Part shown: piece by piece, positions 1,091 to 38,413 of the stretch
Layout: every line of letters begins with the position of its first letter
Position numbering within the stretch: position 1 is the first letter of the stretch
NCBI GenBank assembly: GCA_947462815.1
Contig: CANHQR010000034.1
Location: 1 to 38,413, forward strand
Direction of reading: 5' to 3'
DNA length: 38,413 nucleotides
DNA from: Pseudobdellovibrionaceae bacterium
GTDB taxonomy: Bacteria > Bdellovibrionota > Bdellovibrionia > Bdellovibrionales > JAMPXM01
Made by a program: the position numbers and the translations under genes
The notes under the pieces: generated by a model
Told to the model about the DNA's origin: nothing
Seen by the model: the letters and a program-made list of their open reading frames with translations, nothing else
Database searches by the model: none

Positions 1091-2470
1091 ATGATCCCAG
1101 TCGTCCTTTCCGGCGGCAGTGGCACGAGGCTGTGGCCGGTGTCGCGATCCGCATGGCCAAAACAATTCTGCGAGTTTCTCGGCGAGTCGCTCTTTCACAA
1201 GTCGATCGCCCGACTACAACCCCTCGGCACACCTTGGACGGTGACCACGCGCGAGCTCAAAACACTGACCGAGAAGACTCTGAGAGATTGCGGCATCAAG
1301 GCCGACCGCGTGATTTATGAGCCGCTTCCCAAGAGTACGGGTCCCGCTGTGGCGATTCTTTGCAAAGTTTTGTCGCTGAAGGGTTATGACGACGAAGTCG
1401 TTGGAATTTTTCCGGCCGATCAGCTCGTGGGTCGCGAGCCTGCGTTTCACTCGGCCGTTCGCACGGCCGAGCACTTTGCTCGCCAGGGCGAAATCGTCAC
1501 GCTGGGTATTCAGCCGACGTACCCGGCAACGGGATATGGCTACATCGAGACCGACCCGCAGCCTCTCGCCGAGGGTACCAATTTGCCCGCTCGCAAGGCG
1601 CTGCGCTTTCGCGAAAAGCCGGACGAGGCCACAGCCAAGACTTTTCTCGCCAGCGGTCGCTACTTTTGGAACGCGGGCATGTTTATCTTCCGTGTGAGTC
1701 GTATGCGAGAGCTCCTCAAGCAGTACTTGCCCGATGTCTATTCCGTCGCTGAAAGCTTGCGCGCGGACCTGAGCAACATCGATCAGGTTTACGCGGCCCT
1801 CCGGCCCATCTCGATCGACTACGGTCTGATGGAAAAGCTTCCCAGCCACATCACGGTTCCCTGTGATTGTGACTGGAGTGATCTCGGCACTTGGGACTCG
1901 CTCGCGCAGGCTGTGCCAAAAGGCGCTGCCCGCGAAGTCCATGTGCAATCGGATGATTGCTTCGTTTTTCCGCACACACCCGAGAAATCCTATGCCTTCG
2001 TTGGTGTTAAGGACTTGTTGGTCATCGACACGGCGGATGCCCTGCTGATCGTGAAGCGGGGCCAAAGCGAAAAGGTCAAAGACGTGGTGGACGTACTCAA
2101 GGGCACCCAGCCCGGCCTGGTGGCCAATCACCCCTATGAAATTCGACCTTGGGGGCGCTTTGAGGTGTTGCGCAACATGCGCGACTTCAAATCCAAGCGC
2201 ATGCTCGTCGACCCGGGCGCCCAGATCTCCTATCAGTCGCATGCGCGGCGTGCCGAACACTGGATTATCGTACGCGGCGAGGGCTACGTCGTTCTTGATG
2301 GTAAGACCATCCCCGTCCAAGAGGGAAGCTACGTCCACGTCCCGCTCGGTGCGAAGCATCGCATCGGCAATTCGGGGCAGGAGCCTCTTGAGTTCATCGA
2401 GGTGCAGCTCGGCACGTACTTTGGCGAGGACGACATCGTCCGCTACGAAGACGACTATCAGCGGATTTAA
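1091..2470 (+). CDS. manC: mannose-1-phosphate guanylyltransferase / mannose-6-phosphate isomerase
   Basis: This is a bifunctional type II enzyme. It makes GDP-mannose from mannose-1-phosphate and GTP, and the C-terminal half may interconvert fructose-6-P and mannose-6-P. The N-terminus has the nucleotidyltransferase signature GGSGTRLWPVSR (residues 8-19), followed by FPADQLV and the RFREKPD motif (FxEKP). The C-terminal ~110 residues form the cupin isomerase domain (PYEIRPWGRFEVL, then SYQSHARRAEHWIIVRGEG). At 459 aa it is close to full family length (about 470-480). The ATG at 1091 is the natural start because the GGSGTR motif follows almost at once, but no Shine-Dalgarno is visible. GDP-mannose could feed GDP-deoxysugars made by the Fcl-like enzyme or by the operon that follows. 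The next gene begins 220 bp downstream, so it is probably a separate transcription unit. Confidence 0.93.
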   Translation: MIPVVLSGGSGTRLWPVSRSAWPKQFCEFLGESLFHKSIARLQPLGTPWTVTTRELKTLTEKTLRDCGIKADRVIYEPLPKSTGPAVAILCKVLSLKGYDDEVVGIFPADQLVGREPAFHSAVRTAEHFARQGEIVTLGIQPTYPATGYGYIETDPQPLAEGTNLPARKALRFREKPDEATAKTFLASGRYFWNAGMFIFRVSRMRELLKQYLPDVYSVAESLRADLSNIDQVYAALRPISIDYGLMEKLPSHITVPCDCDWSDLGTWDSLAQAVPKGAAREVHVQSDDCFVFPHTPEKSYAFVGVKDLLVIDTADALLIVKRGQSEKVKDVVDVLKGTQPGLVANHPYEIRPWGRFEVLRNMRDFKSKRMLVDPGAQISYQSHARRAEHWIIVRGEGYVVLDGKTIPVQEGSYVHVPLGAKHRIGNSGQEPLEFIEVQLGTYFGEDDIVRYEDDYQRI

Positions 2471-2508
2471 GAAGCGCATCTGAGAAACGCATCTGAGAAA
2501 CGCATCTA
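2470..2508. repeat. three tandem copies of a 13-bp unit at the manC stop
   Basis: The units are AGAAGCGCATCTG, AGAAACGCATCTG and AGAAACGCATCTA, starting on the last base of the manC stop codon. Two units are identical except for the final base, and the first differs at one more position. No function is evident. Confidence 0.8.
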
Positions 2509-2554
2509 AGACGCGGCTTGAGTCGACAGACCGAGACGCCCGGTTCGCCCCCCC

Positions 2555-2570
2555 TGGAGCGATCGCTCCA
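2555..2570. promoter_or_regulatory. 16-bp perfect palindrome upstream of the E1-like operon
   Basis: TGGAGCGATCGCTCCA is a perfect palindrome, and a second hairpin (TGTGGCG at 2584-2590 with CGCCACA at 2603-2609) follows. Both lie in the 220-bp spacer before the first gene of the 2691-8464 operon. They could be an operator, or part of a terminator for manC, although no T-run follows. A promoter must lie in this spacer, but I cannot place its boxes with confidence. The ribosome binding site AGGGAG is at 2678-2683. Confidence 0.4.
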
Positions 2571-2690
2571 CCGACATCCCGCATGTGGCGTGTGCGGCGA
2601 TGCGCCACAAGCCTCTACCATATAGGGTTTGCGGCTGTGACAACGGGGTGTTAGCACTTTTCCTTCAACAGGTTTTCAGGGAGTTTCCGA

Positions 2691-3719
2691 ATGACCTCGA
2701 GTCCCGTAGCTCGGTCCAAAGCCGAGTGGTTTTCCGCTTATTCCAAAATGCTGCTCGCCCGCATGTGCGAGGAAAAAATCCGCGAAGAGTATTTCAAAGA
2801 CGAAATGAAGACGCCGGTCCACTTGGGGATCGGTGGAGAAGCGATTGCTTGCGGCGTTCACGCCTCAATCGCTCGCGTGCGCGGGGCTCAAGCCGTGAAG
2901 AGCAACACCAAGTATTTCGGCACTTATCGCAATCACTCAATTTTTCTCGCGACCAGCGACGACACCGACACATTCTTCGGTGAGATGTACGGCAAGGTCA
3001 CCGGCTGCGGTAAAGGCAAAGCGGGCTCGATGCATATGGCCTCTCCGGAGCATGGCTTAGTGGCCACATCGGCTGTCGTCGGCACGACAATTCCTCTGGC
3101 TGTTGGATCGGCTCTGGGCGATGCCGTCATGGGCCGCGATGGTTTGAGCATTGTCTTCTTTGGCGATGGCGCGATGGAAGAAGGCGCTTTCTATGAGAGC
3201 GTGAATTTTGCCGCGCTGGAAAAGCTGCCGGTGCTCTTTGTTTGCGAAGACAACGACTTGGCCATTCACAATTTCCGTCACAACCGTCTCGGTTGGAAGT
3301 CGACCAAGGATATGGTTGAGGGATTCCGCTGCCTCTATGATGAAGGCGACGGCACAGACCTCAAGGAAGTCATGGAAAAGACGGATCGCATGATCGCGGA
3401 GATGAAGAAGCAGAACATGCCGGGCTTCTTGAGCTTCAACTATTATCGTTTCCTCGAGCACGTCGGTCCCTTGGAGGATTTCAAGTTTGGCTACCGGGCT
3501 AAAGCTGATCAGGCGGAAGCGAAGTTCGATCCGATCGCGAAGGCCGAAGCTTTCCTCAAAACTCAAGGTGTCACGGACGCCGAGATCGAAGCGGAAAAGA
3601 AGAAGCATCGTGCGCGTATCGATGAGAGCGTGAAGCGCGCGCAAGACGCTCCTTTCCCGCCACCGAATGAACTCTATGCGGACGTTTGGGCTGAAGACAC
3701 GCCGGTGAGGTACATGTGA
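2691..3719 (+). CDS. thiamine-diphosphate dehydrogenase/transferase, E1 alpha-like subunit
   Basis: This is the alpha subunit of the 2-oxoacid dehydrogenase E1 family, which binds thiamine diphosphate (ThDP) and decarboxylates a 2-oxoacid such as pyruvate. The ThDP/Mg motif starts with GDGAMEEG (G158-D159-G160) and ends at EDNDLAIHN. GSMHMASPEHGLVATSAVVG precedes it, as in PdhA/AcoA proteins. At 342 aa it is of normal family length. The start is ATG with AGGGAG 7 bases upstream. The beta subunit is encoded two genes downstream, with a DegT-fold enzyme in between, and no lipoyl E2 or E3 gene is present. This context argues against a catabolic dehydrogenase and for a sugar-modifying ThDP enzyme that transfers a two-carbon unit. 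Known parallels are YerE in yersiniose synthesis (a different ThDP fold) and PDH-E1-like pairs in pathways for two-carbon-branched antibiotic sugars. The family is certain; the substrate is inferred. Confidence 0.88.
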   Translation: MTSSPVARSKAEWFSAYSKMLLARMCEEKIREEYFKDEMKTPVHLGIGGEAIACGVHASIARVRGAQAVKSNTKYFGTYRNHSIFLATSDDTDTFFGEMYGKVTGCGKGKAGSMHMASPEHGLVATSAVVGTTIPLAVGSALGDAVMGRDGLSIVFFGDGAMEEGAFYESVNFAALEKLPVLFVCEDNDLAIHNFRHNRLGWKSTKDMVEGFRCLYDEGDGTDLKEVMEKTDRMIAEMKKQNMPGFLSFNYYRFLEHVGPLEDFKFGYRAKADQAEAKFDPIAKAEAFLKTQGVTDAEIEAEKKKHRARIDESVKRAQDAPFPPPNELYADVWAEDTPVRYM

Positions 3720-4891
3720 AACGACTTGATTTGAAACTCATGGAAAACAACATCACGCGCGAGGATCTCGATGTTCTCATCGATTTTCTCAAGGGTGATC
3801 CCATCCTCACGCAGTCGGCTAATGTCCGCGCCTTTGAGGCGGAGTGGAGCCAGTGGCTGGGTGTGAAGTATTCGGTGTTCGTCAACTCGGGTGCCAGCGC
3901 CAACTTGCTCACCATGGCGGCCCTCAAGCACCTGTACGGTGGCGGCGAGGTGATTGTCCCGACCCTCACTTGGGTCAGCGACATTTCGAGCGTTCTGCAA
4001 AATGGCTTCAAGCCCGTGTTCGTCGATATCGACAAAGATCACCTCGGTATGGACACGGATGAAGTCATCGCCAAGATGACGGACAAAACTCGCGCCGTTT
4101 TTCTGACACACGTCCTCGGCTACAATGGTTTGACGGACAAGCTGATCGACGAGTGCAAAAAGCGAAACATTCTGCTCATCGAAGACGTTTGTGAATCGCA
4201 CGGCGCAACTCACAAAGGTCAGCGTTTGGGCTCGATCGGCTTTGCTTCGAACTTCTCATTTTACTACGCCCACCACATGTCGACCATCGAGGGCGGCATG
4301 GTGTGCACGAATGACGAGAAGTTTTATGAGGCGATCCGCATGCTCCGCTCGCATGGCATGGTTCGCGAGTCCACGTCTCAGGCAGTGAAAGAGCACTACT
4401 GGAAAACTTTCCCGGACCTCAACCCTGAGTTCATCTTCGCTTACCCGGCGTACAATGTGCGCTCGACGGAAGTGAACGCGGTGATCGGGCGGAATCAGTT
4501 GAAGCGTCTTGATGCGAACAACAAACTGCGCACGCGCAATTTGCTGACTTTCCTCAATAACCTCGATCCGGCGAAATACAAAACCGACTACACCACGGAA
4601 GGCTCGTCGAACTACGCCTTCACTTTGGCGCTGGCCAAGCCCGACAAAGAGTTTGTCGTGCGCTTGATGGCGGCGATGAAAGAGGCGGGCATCGAGTACC
4701 GTCGCGGGATGAGCGGGGGCGGCAACATGGTTCGCCAACCGTTCTTGCGCGAAATCGTTGGCGCTGATGCTTGGAAGCAGTTCCCGAAAGTGGATCACAT
4801 CCACTTCTTTGGTTTTTATATTGGCAATTTCCCTGGTCTCGAAGAAGGCCGCGTGAAGGAGCTCGCCGAGTTCTTGAACGCGGTGAAGTGA
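3716..4891 (+). CDS. DegT/DnrJ/EryC1-fold sugar-nucleotide 3-dehydratase, ColD-like
   Basis: This has the fold-type-I PLP fold of sugar aminotransferases, with SGASANLLTMAAL and IEDVCESHGATHKG conserved. The segment that normally carries the PLP lysine reads SFYYAHHMSTIEGG: His186 stands where the lysine should be. The same substitution defines ColD (GDP-4-keto-6-deoxymannose 3-dehydratase, His188) and RfbH/E1. The RfbH-type Fe-S cysteines are absent, so ColD, which works with PMP/PLP and glutamate, is the better model. The C-terminal part (FIFAYPAYNVRSTEVNAVIG) and the length (391 aa, ColD about 388) agree. The start is GTG at 3716 overlapping the preceding stop (GTGA), with GTGAGG 5 bases upstream, so translation is coupled to the E1 alpha gene. 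It probably removes the C3 hydroxyl from a 4-keto-6-deoxy sugar nucleotide. The nucleotide is not proven; GDP is suggested by manC and by the ColD likeness. Confidence 0.85.
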   Translation: MKRLDLKLMENNITREDLDVLIDFLKGDPILTQSANVRAFEAEWSQWLGVKYSVFVNSGASANLLTMAALKHLYGGGEVIVPTLTWVSDISSVLQNGFKPVFVDIDKDHLGMDTDEVIAKMTDKTRAVFLTHVLGYNGLTDKLIDECKKRNILLIEDVCESHGATHKGQRLGSIGFASNFSFYYAHHMSTIEGGMVCTNDEKFYEAIRMLRSHGMVRESTSQAVKEHYWKTFPDLNPEFIFAYPAYNVRSTEVNAVIGRNQLKRLDANNKLRTRNLLTFLNNLDPAKYKTDYTTEGSSNYAFTLALAKPDKEFVVRLMAAMKEAGIEYRRGMSGGGNMVRQPFLREIVGADAWKQFPKVDHIHFFGFYIGNFPGLEEGRVKELAEFLNAVK

Positions 4892-5954: not shown

Positions 5955-7535
5955 ATGGCAGGAAACAAAGTCGACGTGTTGGTGATCAACCCCAGCGCGC
6001 TCTCGAGCATTTACCAATCTTTGTCGAATGAATTGGCCGCCATCGAGCCGCCGATTTGGGCGGGTTTGATCGCGAATCATCTGCGCATGAAGGGTCACTC
6101 CTTGCATCTGATCGATGCTGAGGGGGAAGGCCTGACGGTTGCGGATACAGTCAAGCGATCGGCCGAGTGCGAGCCGAAACTCACCGTCATCGTTGTCTAT
6201 GGTCAGCAGCCCTCGGCCTCGACCCAAAACATGTATGCGGCTCATATCCTCTGCGACACTTACAAAGAGGCTTATCCGGAGCGCAAAGTGCTGATGATCG
6301 GTGGACACGTTTCGGCTCTCCCAGAGACGACGCTTCTGCAAGAGAAGTGCGACTTTGTTTGTAAAGGCGAAGGACCGGCGACGATCACGGGACTTTTGTC
6401 GATCAATATGGACGATTCCAGCCAATACAAGCAGATCCCCGGTCTCTGGTGGCGCGAGGGCGGTAAGCCTGTCTCGGGAACTCCCGGTGCGAATATCCCG
6501 CAAGAGAAGCTAACAACAGAGCTCCCCGGCATCGCTTGGGATCTCTTGCCGATGAAGAACTATCGCGCGCACAACTGGCACTCTTTCGGTCACATCAATG
6601 AGCGCAAACCCTATGCTTCGATTTACACCAGCTTGGGTTGCCCGTTTAAATGCACCTTCTGCTGTATTAACGCTCCGTTTGGCGGCTCGAGCTTCCGTTA
6701 CTGGGATCCCGAGTTCATCGCCAATGAATTCGAGACGCTCACGCAAAAGTACGGCGTGAAGAACGTGAAGATTGCCGATGAAATGTTCGTCTTGCGCGAG
6801 AGCCACTTCTTGAAACTCGCCCAGCTTTTGGGTGAGCGCGGCTACGCAAAAGACGGTTTGAACATTTGGGCCTATGCGCGTGTGGATACGGTGAAGCCGC
6901 AGTATCTCGAGCCGCTCAAAAAAGCCGGTGTGAACTGGCTGGCTCTCGGTATCGAGTCGGGCTCCAAGCATGTTCGCGATGGCGTGACCAAGGGTCGCTT
7001 CGGCGAATCCGACATTCGCTCGATCGTGAAGCAGATCAAAGACGCGGGTATCAATGTGATCGGCAACTACATTTTTGGTTTGCCCGACGACAACTACGAG
7101 TCCATGCAGCAGACCTTGGATCTGTCGCTTGAGCTCAACTGCGAAATGGGGAACTTCTACTCCGCGATGGCTTATCCGGGATCGAAGCTCTACACCATGG
7201 CGGTCGAGCGCAATTGGCCGCTTCCGGATTCTTGGTTGGGCTATTCGCAGCACGCGTTTGAGACGCTGCCGCTTCCGACTGAGCACATCTCGGCGGGTGA
7301 AGTGCTCGCGTTCCGCGATAGGGCCTTCCAGGTCTATTTCAATGACCCGAATTACCTCAGCATGGTGCGCTCAAAATTCGGTGAAGATACATATAGGCAC
7401 ATCGTCGACATGACCAAGCATCAGCTCAAGCGCAAGCACGCGGCTCCTCTGAAAGTCGAGCCGACCGGCCGCGAAGGGCAGTCTTACAAGCAGTACACCG
7501 CTTCCATGGGAGCGTCGGAAGGAGCACGCGTATGA
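5955..7535 (+). CDS. B12-binding-domain radical SAM enzyme
   Basis: The N-terminal ~170 residues form a cobalamin-binding-type domain (VLVINPSALSSIYQSL at the start, then MIGGHVSALPETTLLQEK and CKGEGPATI). The radical SAM core follows with GCPFKCTFCC: C229-x3-C233-x2-C236 bind the [4Fe-4S] cluster, and C237 is an extra adjacent cysteine. Later motifs are NIWAYARVDT, LALGIESGSKHVRDGVTKG and GNYIFGLPDDNYESM, as in BchE-like proteins. At 526 aa the length fits this class. The start is ATG with a strong AAGGAGGG about 5 bases upstream. Family members are mostly methyltransferases, with some ring-forming or rearranging enzymes. In this operon a C-methyltransferase or radical dehydratase acting on the sugar nucleotide is plausible, but the reaction cannot be read from the sequence. 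Confidence 0.85.
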   Translation: MAGNKVDVLVINPSALSSIYQSLSNELAAIEPPIWAGLIANHLRMKGHSLHLIDAEGEGLTVADTVKRSAECEPKLTVIVVYGQQPSASTQNMYAAHILCDTYKEAYPERKVLMIGGHVSALPETTLLQEKCDFVCKGEGPATITGLLSINMDDSSQYKQIPGLWWREGGKPVSGTPGANIPQEKLTTELPGIAWDLLPMKNYRAHNWHSFGHINERKPYASIYTSLGCPFKCTFCCINAPFGGSSFRYWDPEFIANEFETLTQKYGVKNVKIADEMFVLRESHFLKLAQLLGERGYAKDGLNIWAYARVDTVKPQYLEPLKKAGVNWLALGIESGSKHVRDGVTKGRFGESDIRSIVKQIKDAGINVIGNYIFGLPDDNYESMQQTLDLSLELNCEMGNFYSAMAYPGSKLYTMAVERNWPLPDSWLGYSQHAFETLPLPTEHISAGEVLAFRDRAFQVYFNDPNYLSMVRSKFGEDTYRHIVDMTKHQLKRKHAAPLKVEPTGREGQSYKQYTASMGASEGARV

Positions 7536-8464
7536 AGATTTTGGTAACCGGCGGTGCCGGCTATATCGGTTCGATCTTGGTTCCTAAGTTGTTGGGTCTT
7601 GGCCATGAGGTCACTGTCGTCGACAACTTCATGTACAATCAGACGCCGCTCCTCGATGTGACCTTCGACGATAAGTTGACGATGGTTCGTGGCGATGTGC
7701 GTGATCATCAGATCATGAAGCCCTTGATGGCGAAAGCCGATGCGGTCCTGCCGCTGGCGTGCCTCACGGGTGCTCCGCTCTGTAAGCAAGATCCCATCGG
7801 CGCGCGGACCATCAACCACGATGCTGTGAAGATGTTGTTTGAGATGAAGTCGAAAGATCAAATGATGGTCTTTCCGTGTACGAACTCCGGCTATGGCGTT
7901 GGCGAAGCCGGCATTCATTGCGATGAGAACTCGGCGATGCGTCCCGTTTCTCTCTATGGGCAATTGAAAGTCGAGATCGAGAAGGTTCTTCTCGACTCCG
8001 GTCACGTGGCGACTTTCCGTTTGGCGACCGTGATGGGCACAAGCCCGCGCATGCGCTTGGACTTGCTCGTCAATGATTTCACCTATCGCGCCGTGAACGA
8101 TCGTTTCATCGTGCTGTTTGAGGCTCACTTCAAACGCAACTACCTGCACGTGCGCGATGCGGCCGATGCTTTCATCCACACGCTCAACAACTACGACAAA
8201 ATGAAGGGCCAGCCCTACAATGTCGGCTTGAGCGAAGCGAATCTCTCGAAGATGGAGCTTTGCTTGGCGATCAAAAAACAGATTCCTGAGTTCACCATCA
8301 TGGAATCCGAAATTGGTGAAGATCCTGATAAACGTAACTACATCATCTCGAATGCGAAGATCGAAGCGACAGGCTTCAAAGCCAAAGTCGGCTTGGATCA
8401 ATCGCTGCGCGAGCTGATCCGCGGCTTCAAGATCATCAAGCGCAACTCCTTTGCGAACATCTGA
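7532..8464 (+). CDS. NAD(P)-dependent sugar-nucleotide epimerase/dehydratase/reductase (extended SDR)
   Basis: This is an extended short-chain dehydrogenase. It has the Rossmann motif GGAGYIG (residues 7-13), the catalytic SLYGQLK with Y142-x3-K146, and the NYLHVRDAADAFIHTL segment typical of UDP-glucose-4-epimerase relatives. It is 310 aa long. Its ATG overlaps the stop of the radical SAM gene (ATGA at 7532), so it is the last, translationally coupled gene of the operon, and a strong terminator follows. In the model proposed here it would reduce a keto group, possibly that of a newly attached two-carbon side chain as YerF does in yersiniose synthesis. A 4-epimerase role is the main alternative. 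Confidence 0.85.
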   Translation: MKILVTGGAGYIGSILVPKLLGLGHEVTVVDNFMYNQTPLLDVTFDDKLTMVRGDVRDHQIMKPLMAKADAVLPLACLTGAPLCKQDPIGARTINHDAVKMLFEMKSKDQMMVFPCTNSGYGVGEAGIHCDENSAMRPVSLYGQLKVEIEKVLLDSGHVATFRLATVMGTSPRMRLDLLVNDFTYRAVNDRFIVLFEAHFKRNYLHVRDAADAFIHTLNNYDKMKGQPYNVGLSEANLSKMELCLAIKKQIPEFTIMESEIGEDPDKRNYIISNAKIEATGFKAKVGLDQSLRELIRGFKIIKRNSFANI

Positions 8465-35404: not shown

Positions 35405-35629
35405 TTGTGCGGCCTGTGTTAAGGCGCGGTGTATCGCTTCGCAGCGGTATCGATCTGCCAGCCTAAACTCCCGGCATCGGTGGATCTCGAGCGCAGGAAA
35501 GAGTGGATCGAACGCCCGTGACCTCGGACAATCCGCGAGGAATGACGTTAGTATAAATAATTGTAAATATTGAATTTAACATTAATTGCGACATTGTTTT
35601 ATTTGTCGTAATATAGAGAGGGAGGTCCA
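35405..35629. promoter_or_regulatory. AT-rich divergent promoter region with an inverted repeat
   Basis: This 225-bp spacer becomes very A+T-rich from about 35545. ATTGCGACA (35585-35593) and TGTCGTAAT (35604-35612) form an inverted repeat with one mismatch and a 10-bp centre. TTGCGA (35586-35591) and TAATAT (35609-35614) at 17-bp spacing could be -35 and -10 boxes lying inside the repeat, as at an autoregulated operator, but the RNA would then begin only about 9 bases before the ATG. TATAAA at 35552-35557 is another possible -10. GGGAGG at 35620-35625 precedes the ATG by 4 bases. Confidence 0.5.
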
Positions 35630-36163
35630 ATGAACGATAAGCCTATTAGCAAAGCCGTAGCCTTGAAGGCATTTGAGAAATTGGACGCCTATTTGCGGGA
35701 GCCGCTCACTCTCATTATGGGCGGGGGCACCAGCATGTTACTCGCACACGGTTATCCTCTCTCCACCTCGGATGTCGACGCACTTCCTCGACAGACTTCG
35801 TTTGAGGCCATCGATGCACATGTGAAGCAAGTGGCTCAGGATTTGGATCTACCACCGGATTGGTTGAACCCCTATTTCGCCTCTTTCACGCATGTGTTGC
35901 CGGCCGACTATGGACGGCGACTCATCAGTGTCTTTCAGGGTCGTTCTCTTCAAGTCGAGGCCTTGGGGCGCGAGGAGATGTTGATTATGAAGTGCTTTGC
36001 CCATCGACCGAAGGACCTTGGGCATGCGCGTGCGCTATTGAAGCTCGGCGTAAACCTCAACATTGTGGAATCGGCGATAGAGTCTTGTCGAGATCGGGGC
36101 GTTCCCGGGGCCGATCAGGCAATTGAGTTTTTGGATGATCTCATCGATGAGTCTGAGGCATGA
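35630..36163 (+). CDS. nucleotidyltransferase-fold protein (DUF6036-like), possible toxin or antitoxin
   Basis: This 177-aa protein carries the minimal pol-beta/MNT nucleotidyltransferase signature: GGGTSMLLAHG (G31-G33, S35) followed by STSDVDAL, with acidic residues Asp48 and Asp50. A third acidic position may be Glu in QVEALGREEMLIMKCFAHRP. The pattern is that of DUF6036/AbiEii-like proteins, some of which are toxin components that transfer nucleotides. It has a strong GGGAGG ribosome binding site, sits behind an A+T-rich promoter with an inverted repeat, and overlaps the next gene by ATGA. These traits suggest a toxin-antitoxin or related defence pair, but no activity is proven. Confidence 0.7.
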   Translation: MNDKPISKAVALKAFEKLDAYLREPLTLIMGGGTSMLLAHGYPLSTSDVDALPRQTSFEAIDAHVKQVAQDLDLPPDWLNPYFASFTHVLPADYGRRLISVFQGRSLQVEALGREEMLIMKCFAHRPKDLGHARALLKLGVNLNIVESAIESCRDRGVPGADQAIEFLDDLIDESEA

Positions 36164-36927
36164 AGGGCCTGCGAGATCTTCCGCAGATCGATGACCTGCG
36201 GGTTGCCTATGAGGAGCTCGATCTGAGTTTTTCAAGAGCACGCCAAGTTGAGCAGCTCGATATGAAGCGCCTTGCCTTGCTCTCTCAATGGGCCAGACTG
36301 GATCCGCGTTTGGCTGAACTCTTCTGCGGTTATTTGCAGCGGAACTGGTCGCAGCTGCGGTCCGTGGAATTACTGGAAGCTCTCACCGAGCAGCCTTGGC
36401 CTCGCGCCATTCTAGTCCCCTTACGTTTCGTTGAGCTGGCCGCGCTCGATGAGAGCCATGAGTCTGAGGGGGGTGGGCATGAATCACAGCAGGCCTCGGC
36501 GAATTCCCTGAGGCTCTTTGCGCTTCGGGCCCTCATTGATTTGATCGACCGCAGTTTTCCGCAAAAGACCTACGACCTATTTTTCATTCCACTTCAGCAG
36601 CCCAATCGGGTGATCCTTCGCAACGAGCTGAGGCTAAGGGGTATGGCCTACGTTCGGTCAGGATATATAGGGTCGGCCTCGTTGCTCGCGAAGGGTAGAT
36701 CGCCTCAAAGTAGAACTATTCTCGACGCCGGCGCTAGAAGGTCGCTATTAGAGGAGAGGGTTCGGCAAATGAAAATCGGCGACCGTCTGACAGTTGAAGA
36801 CTATCTCGAGTTATGCGCCGGAAAAATCAGTCGCCGCCAAGCCCAGCGAGACTTGGCCGTATGTGATAAGCTCAGGTCCATCGGCCACACCCGACGGCTT
36901 CGATATCTGAAAAGCGCGAGTCGGTAA
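36160..36927 (+). CDS. hypothetical protein with C-terminal helix-turn-helix, partner of the nucleotidyltransferase
   Basis: I do not recognise the full family. The 255-aa protein is mostly helical in its N-terminal 150 residues. It ends with a basic segment, LTVEDYLELCAGKISRRQAQ followed by RDLAVCDKLRSIGHTRRLRY, that reads as a DeoR/Fic-type winged helix-turn-helix. ATG at 36160 overlaps the preceding stop (ATGA), so the two are translated together. A DNA-binding partner fits autoregulation at the inverted repeat upstream of 35630. In AbiE systems the HTH antitoxin gene comes first, so the order here is reversed and the architecture (HTH at the C-terminus) differs. Confidence 0.6.
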   Translation: MKGLRDLPQIDDLRVAYEELDLSFSRARQVEQLDMKRLALLSQWARLDPRLAELFCGYLQRNWSQLRSVELLEALTEQPWPRAILVPLRFVELAALDESHESEGGGHESQQASANSLRLFALRALIDLIDRSFPQKTYDLFFIPLQQPNRVILRNELRLRGMAYVRSGYIGSASLLAKGRSPQSRTILDAGARRSLLEERVRQMKIGDRLTVEDYLELCAGKISRRQAQRDLAVCDKLRSIGHTRRLRYLKSASR

Positions 36928-36947: not shown

Positions 36948-37466
36948 TCAGTCGAACTTCAGCACGGATTTACACTTCATGCCGCGCCACTCGAACTTAT
37001 TGAGGAATCGCAGATCGATCATGACTGCAAGATCGACGACGGCATAACCCGCCTCGGTCAGCGCGTTGGCTGAAGCGCCCAGTGTGCCGCCCGTCGCGAG
37101 CACATCGTCGATCAGTACAATGCGACCGCGGCCTCGCTTCACTTCGATGGCGTCTTCGCCATACTCGAGTTTGTAGCTGTGATGGACGACCGGCGGCGGC
37201 AGCTTGCCTTTCTTGCGTACAGGGATGAAACCGCAGCCCAGTTCCTGAGCCATAGCCGCAGCGAGGATGAAGCCGCGTGATTCTACGCCGGCGATGGCGT
37301 CGGGCTTTTTGTCGCGGATGAGATCGCAGAGAGTGACGATCAATCGCGGGAACTCCGTCGGCGAGCCGAGCAGCGGCGAGATATCTTTGAAGATGACGCC
37401 CGGTTTGGGGAAGTCTTTGACGTTCTCAATCAGGGAAAGAAACTTGGCGTCGTTGGTGTTGCTCAT
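36948..37466 (-). CDS. apt: adenine phosphoribosyltransferase
   Basis: This purine-salvage enzyme makes AMP from adenine and PRPP in the cytoplasm. The N-terminal VKDFPKPGVIFKDISPLL is diagnostic of Apt, followed by AIAGVESRGFILAAAMAQEL, GFIPVRKKGKLPPPVV, YGEDAIEVKRG and the PRPP loop IVLIDDVLATGGTLGA. At 172 aa it is of normal length. GGAG lies 6 bases before the ATG. It is convergent with the HTH gene, 20 bp apart, and marks the return to ordinary chromosomal genes. Confidence 0.96.
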   Translation of the reverse strand: MSNTNDAKFLSLIENVKDFPKPGVIFKDISPLLGSPTEFPRLIVTLCDLIRDKKPDAIAGVESRGFILAAAMAQELGCGFIPVRKKGKLPPPVVHHSYKLEYGEDAIEVKRGRGRIVLIDDVLATGGTLGASANALTEAGYAVVDLAVMIDLRFLNKFEWRGMKCKSVLKFD

Positions 37467-37572
37467 AAGGGTCTCCGAGTAGGGGTCGAATGCTAGTCGT
37501 AGCGTGGGCCGTTGGCCTCGTCCACTCTTGTGCGCTGTTTCCTTGGTGGAGGGCTTGTGTTAGGAGGGGCGT

Positions 37573-38265
37573 ATGGCAAAAAAGAAGAGTGGTTGTAGAG
37601 CGTCGTCGGGGTTATCGCCGCATCGGTCGGAGGCTGAGCATATTGTCGAAATTTGTCGGCGTTTGCATCAGCGCTTTTGGCTGTCTTCGGCGGATGGCAA
37701 TGTATCGATTCGCTTGGATGATGAGCGGATTTTGATCACGCCGACGGGTCTGCATAAGGGCTTTATAGGATGGCGCGATCTCGCCTTGGTGGATTGTAAG
37801 GGTGAGGTGTTGTGGGGGCGACCGAGTAGCGAAAAGCTCATGCATCTGGAGATCTACCGGCGCTTGCCACTCGCACGAGCTGTTGTCCATCCGCATCCGC
37901 CGCATTCGATTGCATGGTCGGTGGCTCGGCCTGATTGGAAAGAGCTGCCGATCGACGCATTGACGGAGTTGGTTTTGGCCGTCGGGCGCATTCCGATTGC
38001 GCCTTACGCGTTACCAGGCACGCAGCAGATGGGTGATGTGTTGTTTCCGGATCTGGAGTCGACGCGCGTGATGATTTTGGCGCGACACGGTGCTTTGGCT
38101 TGGGGCGAGTCGCTGGAAGAAGCTTACAATGGCATCGAGCGTATCGAGCACGCGTCCATGATTTTGGCAGCAGCGCATGCGATGGGCGGGATCACGTGCT
38201 TGCCGGCGGATGAGTTCGCGCGCTTGCGTGTGTTGCGCGAGAAGTTGGGGCCGCGAACCTTGTGA
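37573..38265 (+). CDS. class II aldolase/adducin-family protein
   Basis: This 230-aa zinc-dependent aldolase-fold protein has HQRFWLSSADGNVSIRLDDE, ILITPTGLHKG, and the metal ligands in VVHPHPPHSIAW (His-x-His) and ILARHGALAWGESLEEAYNG (third His). The catalytic acidic position is likely the Glu in SSEKLMHLEIYRR. The family includes fuculose- and rhamnulose-phosphate aldolases and methylthioribulose-1-phosphate dehydratase (MtnB). No neighbour fixes the substrate, so no symbol is given. AGGAGG lies 6 bases before the ATG. Confidence 0.87.
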   Translation: MAKKKSGCRASSGLSPHRSEAEHIVEICRRLHQRFWLSSADGNVSIRLDDERILITPTGLHKGFIGWRDLALVDCKGEVLWGRPSSEKLMHLEIYRRLPLARAVVHPHPPHSIAWSVARPDWKELPIDALTELVLAVGRIPIAPYALPGTQQMGDVLFPDLESTRVMILARHGALAWGESLEEAYNGIERIEHASMILAAAHAMGGITCLPADEFARLRVLREKLGPRTL

Positions 38266-38305
38266 TGCTGGGGCGGGAAGGTTGAGTGTTTGGCGCGGCT
38301 TGGGC

Positions 38306-38413
38306 GTGGTGTGCGGTTGTGGTGTGCGGTTGTGATGTGCGGTTGTGATGTGCGGTTGTGATGTGCGGTTGTGATGTGCGGTTGTGATGTGCGGTTGTGA
38401 TGTGCGGTTGTGA
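38306..38413. repeat. 13-bp tandem repeat array, continuing past the window end
   Basis: Eight consecutive units follow the aldolase gene. The first two are GTGGTGTGCGGTT, the next six are GTGATGTGCGGTT without a mismatch, and the window ends 4 bases into a ninth. The array starts 40 bp after the aldolase stop codon and its true length is unknown. The period of 13 is not a multiple of three, so it is unlikely to be coding. Confidence 0.95.

Follow-up and report, generated by a model that had tools for sequence, protein, structure and literature searches.

Introduction

Toxin-antitoxin (TA) pairs built around a nucleotidyltransferase (NTase) are represented by the AbiE and MenAT systems. AbiE (AbiEi/AbiEii, type IV TA; PMC3985639, PMC7319586) combines in one bicistronic unit an NTase and a winged helix-turn-helix (wHTH) protein, and an inverted repeat overlaps its promoter. 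In AbiE-type pairs, the gene of the regulator lies ahead of that of the NTase, AbiEi carries an N-terminal wHTH together with a different C-terminal domain, and motif IV of AbiEii is +DxxD (PMC3985639). In MenAT (MenT1/MenA1, MenT3/MenA3; DUF1814; PMC10435456, PMC11375011), the NTase is characterized by GG...T-x-D-h-D, K and R-x2-D. Mutations at D41, K137 and D152 abolish the toxicity of MenT1, and its phosphorylation site is T39 (PMC10435456, PMC11375011). Furthermore, an NTase and a helical partner are joined in HEPN-MNT pairs (HepT/MntA; PMC2701414, PMC4621449).

We have analyzed a gene pair within a stretch of 38,413 nucleotides, here called the window, from a Pseudobdellovibrionaceae bacterium. 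This pair looks like an undescribed TA system. It is best read as a MenAT/AbiE variant that has its own partner family, with the gene order reversed and motif IV altered.

Results

Organization of the locus

The NTase gene and the gene of its partner protein (Table 1) lie between an ABC-2 exporter gene, which is divergent, and apt, which is convergent. The original prediction had described two open reading frames overlapping in ATGA, a GGGTS...DVD nucleotidyltransferase and an A+T-rich promoter; both genes were found as described, and the GC content of the promoter was 28% as compared to 53% across the window. A promoter scan at default thresholds missed this promoter. Gene order and HTH position had been claimed to differ from AbiEi/AbiEii. 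This proved correct: the NTase gene comes first and the HTH is C-terminal, in contrast to AbiE (PMC3985639). Identity with AbiE was rejected on three counts: the order of the genes, the family of the partner and the location of the HTH.

Table 1. Coordinates of predicted features of the NTase/partner locus in the window.
Feature	Position	Strand	Basis
DUF6036 NTase gene, probable toxin	35630-36163	+	177 aa; PF19502 E 2.9e-10, AF2 pLDDT 96.6, MenT1 fold matches
Partner gene, probable antitoxin and autorepressor	36160-36927	+	255 aa; directly 3' of NTase in 43/43 named loci
ATGA stop/start overlap of NTase and partner genes	36160-36163	+	sequence
Shine-Dalgarno-like GGGAGG	35620-35625	+	read from sequence
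Probable sigma-70 promoter: TTGCGA (35586-35591), 17 bp, TAATAT (35609-35614)	35586-35614	+	sequence; conserved with operator in relatives
Predicted operator: inverted repeat ATTGCGACA-N10-TGTCGTAAT overlapping promoter	35585-35612	.	motif in 31/37 class-1 loci
NTase motifs I/II: GGGTS (residues 31-35) to T46-S-D48-V-D50	35720-35779	+	subfamily conservation; alignment with MenT1 GG...TRDVD
NTase motifs III/IV: K121...R126-P-K128-D129-x-x-H132	35990-36025	+	K, R, D invariant; H132 in 47/47
Partner N-terminal helical domain (residues 1-165), R46-x-D-P-R50-L and invariant P81	36160-36654	+	conservation in 48 rows
Partner C-terminal winged-helix domain (residues 190-251)	36727-36912	+	AF2 model and Foldseek
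Recognition helix RRQAQRDLAV (residues 225-234); R230 codon 36847-36849	36832-36861	+	match of residue 230 with operator base 7

The NTase resembles MenT1

The NTase matched the Pfam model PF19502 (DUF6036) with 40.6 bits at a gathering cut-off of 23.6 (E 2.9e-10); this model was also matched by all 53 rows of alignment A3 at E≤0.01. The AbiEii model PF08843 (DUF1814) gave 13.2 bits, which is under its cut-off of 22.5 (E 0.083). Several MenT1 entries were among the best Foldseek matches of the AF2 model (pLDDT 96.6) with prob 0.87-0.97; these matches were weak, with E 0.013-0.1 (best 1.3e-2) and TM about 0.43-0.52. The label "MNT-type" given to the protein at the outset was right in naming an NTase, but it is a DUF6036 protein nearest in fold to MenT1 and not one of the MntA/HepT kind.

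A profile search aligned T46-S-D48-V-D50 of the NTase to T39-R-D41-V-D43 of MenT1, and K121, R126, D129 and H132 to K137, R146, D149 and D152. The catalytic aspartates were expected to be conserved in homologues; among the 47 members of the pair subfamily, D48 was found in 46 and D50 in all, and T46, K121, R126 and D129 are likewise invariant. T46 thus occupies the position of the phosphorylated T39 of MenT1. Motifs I-III of the MenT/AbiEii DUF1814 toxins (GG, T/S-x-D-h-D, K...R) are present. Motif IV, +DxxD, is absent from the subfamily and K-D-x-x-H stands in its place (47/47 members). Position 132 is H in all of them, whereas it is D in 6/6 other DUF6036 proteins aligned; therefore, motif IV was changed to KDxxH in this branch. 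With H132 replacing the catalytic D152, the chemistry of the NTase may differ from that of MenT1. The conserved residues and the predicted fold resemble those of this tRNA-modifying toxin. Further differences from MenAT are the family and size of the NTase (DUF6036, 177 aa), its gene coming first, and a partner that matches no described antitoxin family.

The partner protein

Neither Pfam nor PADLOC contained a family matching the partner, their AbiEi models included, and NCBIfam matches were far under the cut-off. The AF2 model (pLDDT 91.2) is mainly helical to about residue 166 and shows a winged helix at residues 190-251, in agreement with the winged-HTH-like C-terminus noted originally. 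Foldseek matches of this winged helix were NolR, ArsR/SmtB-type and other winged-helix proteins; the N-terminal helical domain had no significant match in the PDB. A Foldseek comparison with viral models yielded nothing significant, only matches of winged-helix size. Conservation in the N-terminal domain is pronounced at R50 and P81, which are invariant in 48 rows, and at R46 (47/48). This domain probably neutralizes the NTase, a role for which homology gives no support.

In the partners of L062, L096, L097 and plasmid pBdHM1, the N-terminal domain is kept while the C-terminus is a Cro/XRE-type HTH; judged by these sequences, the DNA-binding module is therefore exchanged between relatives (winged helix vs XRE).

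Pairing, distribution and mobility

The partner was present in 18 of 148 relatives and, at E≤0.001, in 50 of the 369 genomes of the phylum (about 43 strong); its distribution is therefore patchy. Scanning the genome contigs with the single partner sequence gave no match, and the NTase alignment was needed. A search with the latter retrieved 43 loci whose records bear a title; they come from Bdellovibrionota, from MAGs of other "Deltaproteobacteria" and, in one case, from a Nitrospira MAG. These loci were retrieved with the NTase alone and then checked for the partner. In all 43, the partner gene follows the NTase gene immediately and in the same orientation or, in one decayed case, is fused to it; the check proposed originally, whether the pair occurs in other loci and is inherited jointly, thus came out in favour of the pair. 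The NTase gene was first in every locus of the subfamily found. Identity to the window was mostly 40-70% for the NTase and 14-46% for the partner, hence the NTase is better conserved across loci.

At the 43 loci, the nearest and next-nearest neighbours of the pair belong to no dominant family; they are mostly housekeeping genes and include no recurrent defence family. Therefore, the unit is made up of the promoter with the NTase and partner genes and shows no preference for defence islands; location in a defence island was rejected.

In one genus, the promoter and pair are located between rmlB and rmlD in two genomes (G261 and G274), while these genes are adjacent and the junction is empty in the three sister species G156, G176 and G220. 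In a fourth, G185, the junction (L161:490-1454) contains a 124-aa upstream gene and an AbiEii-matching NTase (E 5e-7). NTase modules may insert repeatedly between rmlB and rmlD. Within the window's family, several genomes that have no pair next to apt keep a neighbour of apt resembling the window's class II aldolase-type gene; in G008, the pair is present but lies away from apt. As a separate observation, apt adjoins a class II aldolase/adducin-family or similar-looking gene in the window (36948-38265) and in L140-L144, forming a conserved divergent pair.

Plasmid pBdHM1 of Bdellovibrio sp. HM001 carries a 41% identical NTase with its partner. Tblastn of the window's partner gave no match in plasmid or phage records, and the NTase had no match among viral contigs. 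The deposited pBdHM1 NTase gene BdHM001_36380 starts at 6103, apparently too late, for the frame (L158:5995-6528) is open from 5995 and the part missing from the deposited gene holds the GGG motif. Taken from the sequences, NTase and partner are a compact portable unit which is co-inherited and horizontally mobile. Of the mobile defence or addiction module proposed originally, the mobility has stood, with empty sites and a plasmid copy; a role in phage defence found no support, the loci having no defence-island context.

A conserved operator and its recognition helix

The promoter boxes had been placed in an inverted repeat. Judged alone, this repeat is not significant (best score 6 vs 5.6 in shuffles), but it is real, and its conservation in relatives makes it significant. 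Its consensus across loci (operator A) is TTGCGA[C/A]A...T[G/T]TCG[T/C]AA with the spacing of a -35/-10 pair. Operator A was found upstream of 31/37 loci with the same helix type (class 1) as compared to 15/1914 control windows drawn from the same loci. A second motif, operator B (TTGAC[T/A]AnTAGTC), accompanied 8/9 SRQQA-helix partners at a strict threshold and occurred in 2/1914 controls. Both operators were absent upstream of XRE-type partners (0/3). The motifs were derived from the same loci in which they were counted; therefore, the control windows and not the motif fit carry weight. The 3.4-Mb genome contains only one perfect operator copy, the window's own, with near-matches at control level. 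By these counts, the inverted repeat behaves as a conserved operator of the partner over the -35 and -10 boxes.

Residue 230 of the partner agrees with base 7 of the operator in 31/31 loci for the right half and 30/31 for the left half. In the right half, Arg 230 coincides with base C (C/G; 15/15) and any other residue with base A (A/T; 16/16; Fisher p 3e-9). In the class 1 recognition helix, residue 230 directly follows A-[E/Q]. In the best tree built without the HTH, residue and operator base both change six times; only one contrast among these changes lies on well-supported branches, and the statistical independence of the match is therefore limited. The operator specificity of the helix may thus be readable from one residue, as a one-residue operator code.

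Natural breakdowns of the pair

In G142, the NTase is cleanly deleted and the operator with the first NTase codons (a 14-codon leader) leads into an intact partner. The NTase of G204 has lost its C-terminus including R126 and D129, and what remains forms an in-frame fusion with an intact partner. G176 has an NTase without motifs I-II next to an intact partner, and both genes are broken in G258. Among the loci found, none had an intact NTase that lacked its partner. The ratio of NTase to partner losses is 3:0, which is not significant (p about 0.125). Three losses of the NTase with the partner kept suggest, therefore, that the NTase is the toxin and the partner the antitoxin and autorepressor.

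Discussion

We consider it probable that the locus is a self-contained, autoregulated TA module with an NTase toxin and a partner antitoxin. From the computed pairing, co-mobility, dedicated operator, helix-operator match and MenT-like residues and fold, we infer toxicity, target, neutralization and repression as follows. One promoter would drive the DUF6036 NTase and, via translational overlap, the partner. The partner would repress the operon by binding, through its C-terminal winged helix, to the inverted repeat that covers the -35 and -10 boxes; neutralization of the NTase most likely falls to its N-terminal helical domain. Upon loss of the antitoxin, the NTase set free would presumably add nucleotides to an essential RNA and thereby stop growth; the most likely site is the 3' end of tRNA, as for MenT toxins. 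Only tentatively do we propose a distinct class of NTase TA systems, defined by a motif IV with invariant His, a possible new substrate, an antitoxin of new fold, an exchanged DNA-binding module and a one-residue operator specificity.

The module may serve in phage defence by abortive infection, AbiE-like in role, rather than in addiction. AbiE, which has a related NTase, protects against phage (PMC3985639), and the cassette is portable; however, the mostly housekeeping flanks of the 43 loci and the lack of matches, of the NTase among viral contigs and of the partner among phage records, make this use unlikely. It concerns what the module is for and is compatible with a TA mechanism, so that its probability does not compete with that of the TA module.

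Still less likely is a non-toxic regulatory pair, in which the NTase would adjust an autoregulated switch by modifying either the partner or an RNA, without addiction or growth arrest. The partner appears from its sequence to be a convincing dedicated DNA binder, and H132 stands in place of a residue without which MenT1 is not toxic. Against this, the single perfect operator copy lies at the pair's own promoter and there is therefore no evident regulon; furthermore, the distribution is patchy and portable at differing loci, the NTase was lost repeatedly while the partner was kept, and an insertion site is shared with an AbiEii-type pair.

Reversed roles, with the partner as toxin and the NTase as an antitoxin modifying it, are very improbable: HEPN-MNT pairs likewise join an NTase and a helical protein (PMC2701414, PMC4621449), and RxDPR and P81 of the partner are nearly invariant, as would suit an active site or a binding site, but the window partner lacks the RX4-6H motif, for which a HEPN-like partner was rejected, it bears a C-terminal DNA-binding domain, an intact partner persists in three genomes whose NTase is lost or defective, and no HEPN protein was among its listed Foldseek hits.

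As a probable TA module, the locus gives a concrete, testable role to one branch of DUF6036, a curated family of unknown function whose name was not found in use in the literature searched. It also brings out a partner family without a name in Pfam or PADLOC. The complete plasmid of Bdellovibrio strain HM001 is a source of an NTase/partner pair for tests.

Other DUF6036 NTases (L099-L109 and the Arthrobacter plasmid pair L159) also adjoin a regulator-like gene of about 180-255 aa. They differ in having other partner families, both gene orders and, in six aligned, D-x-x-D as motif IV. This suggests that several unrelated antitoxins serve as partners of NTase toxins, which has also been reported for MenA. 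Homology of the window's partner to these other partners is weak at most, with a weak profile link to one partner family only (hhalign E 0.004, probability 8.5). The window's genome contains a second DUF6036 NTase (L099, G000:C20:10500-15500; 1977-2600, minus strand) in the opposite gene order: the upstream gene (2551-3315, minus strand) is encoded first, overlaps the NTase gene and specifies a 254-aa N-terminal-HTH protein. In L048, two DUF6036 NTases of different branches (3974-4504 and 7549-8076) lie within about 4 kb. Additionally, tandem repeats of a GTGCGGTTGTGAT-like unit occupy positions 38290-38413 of the window up to the contig end.
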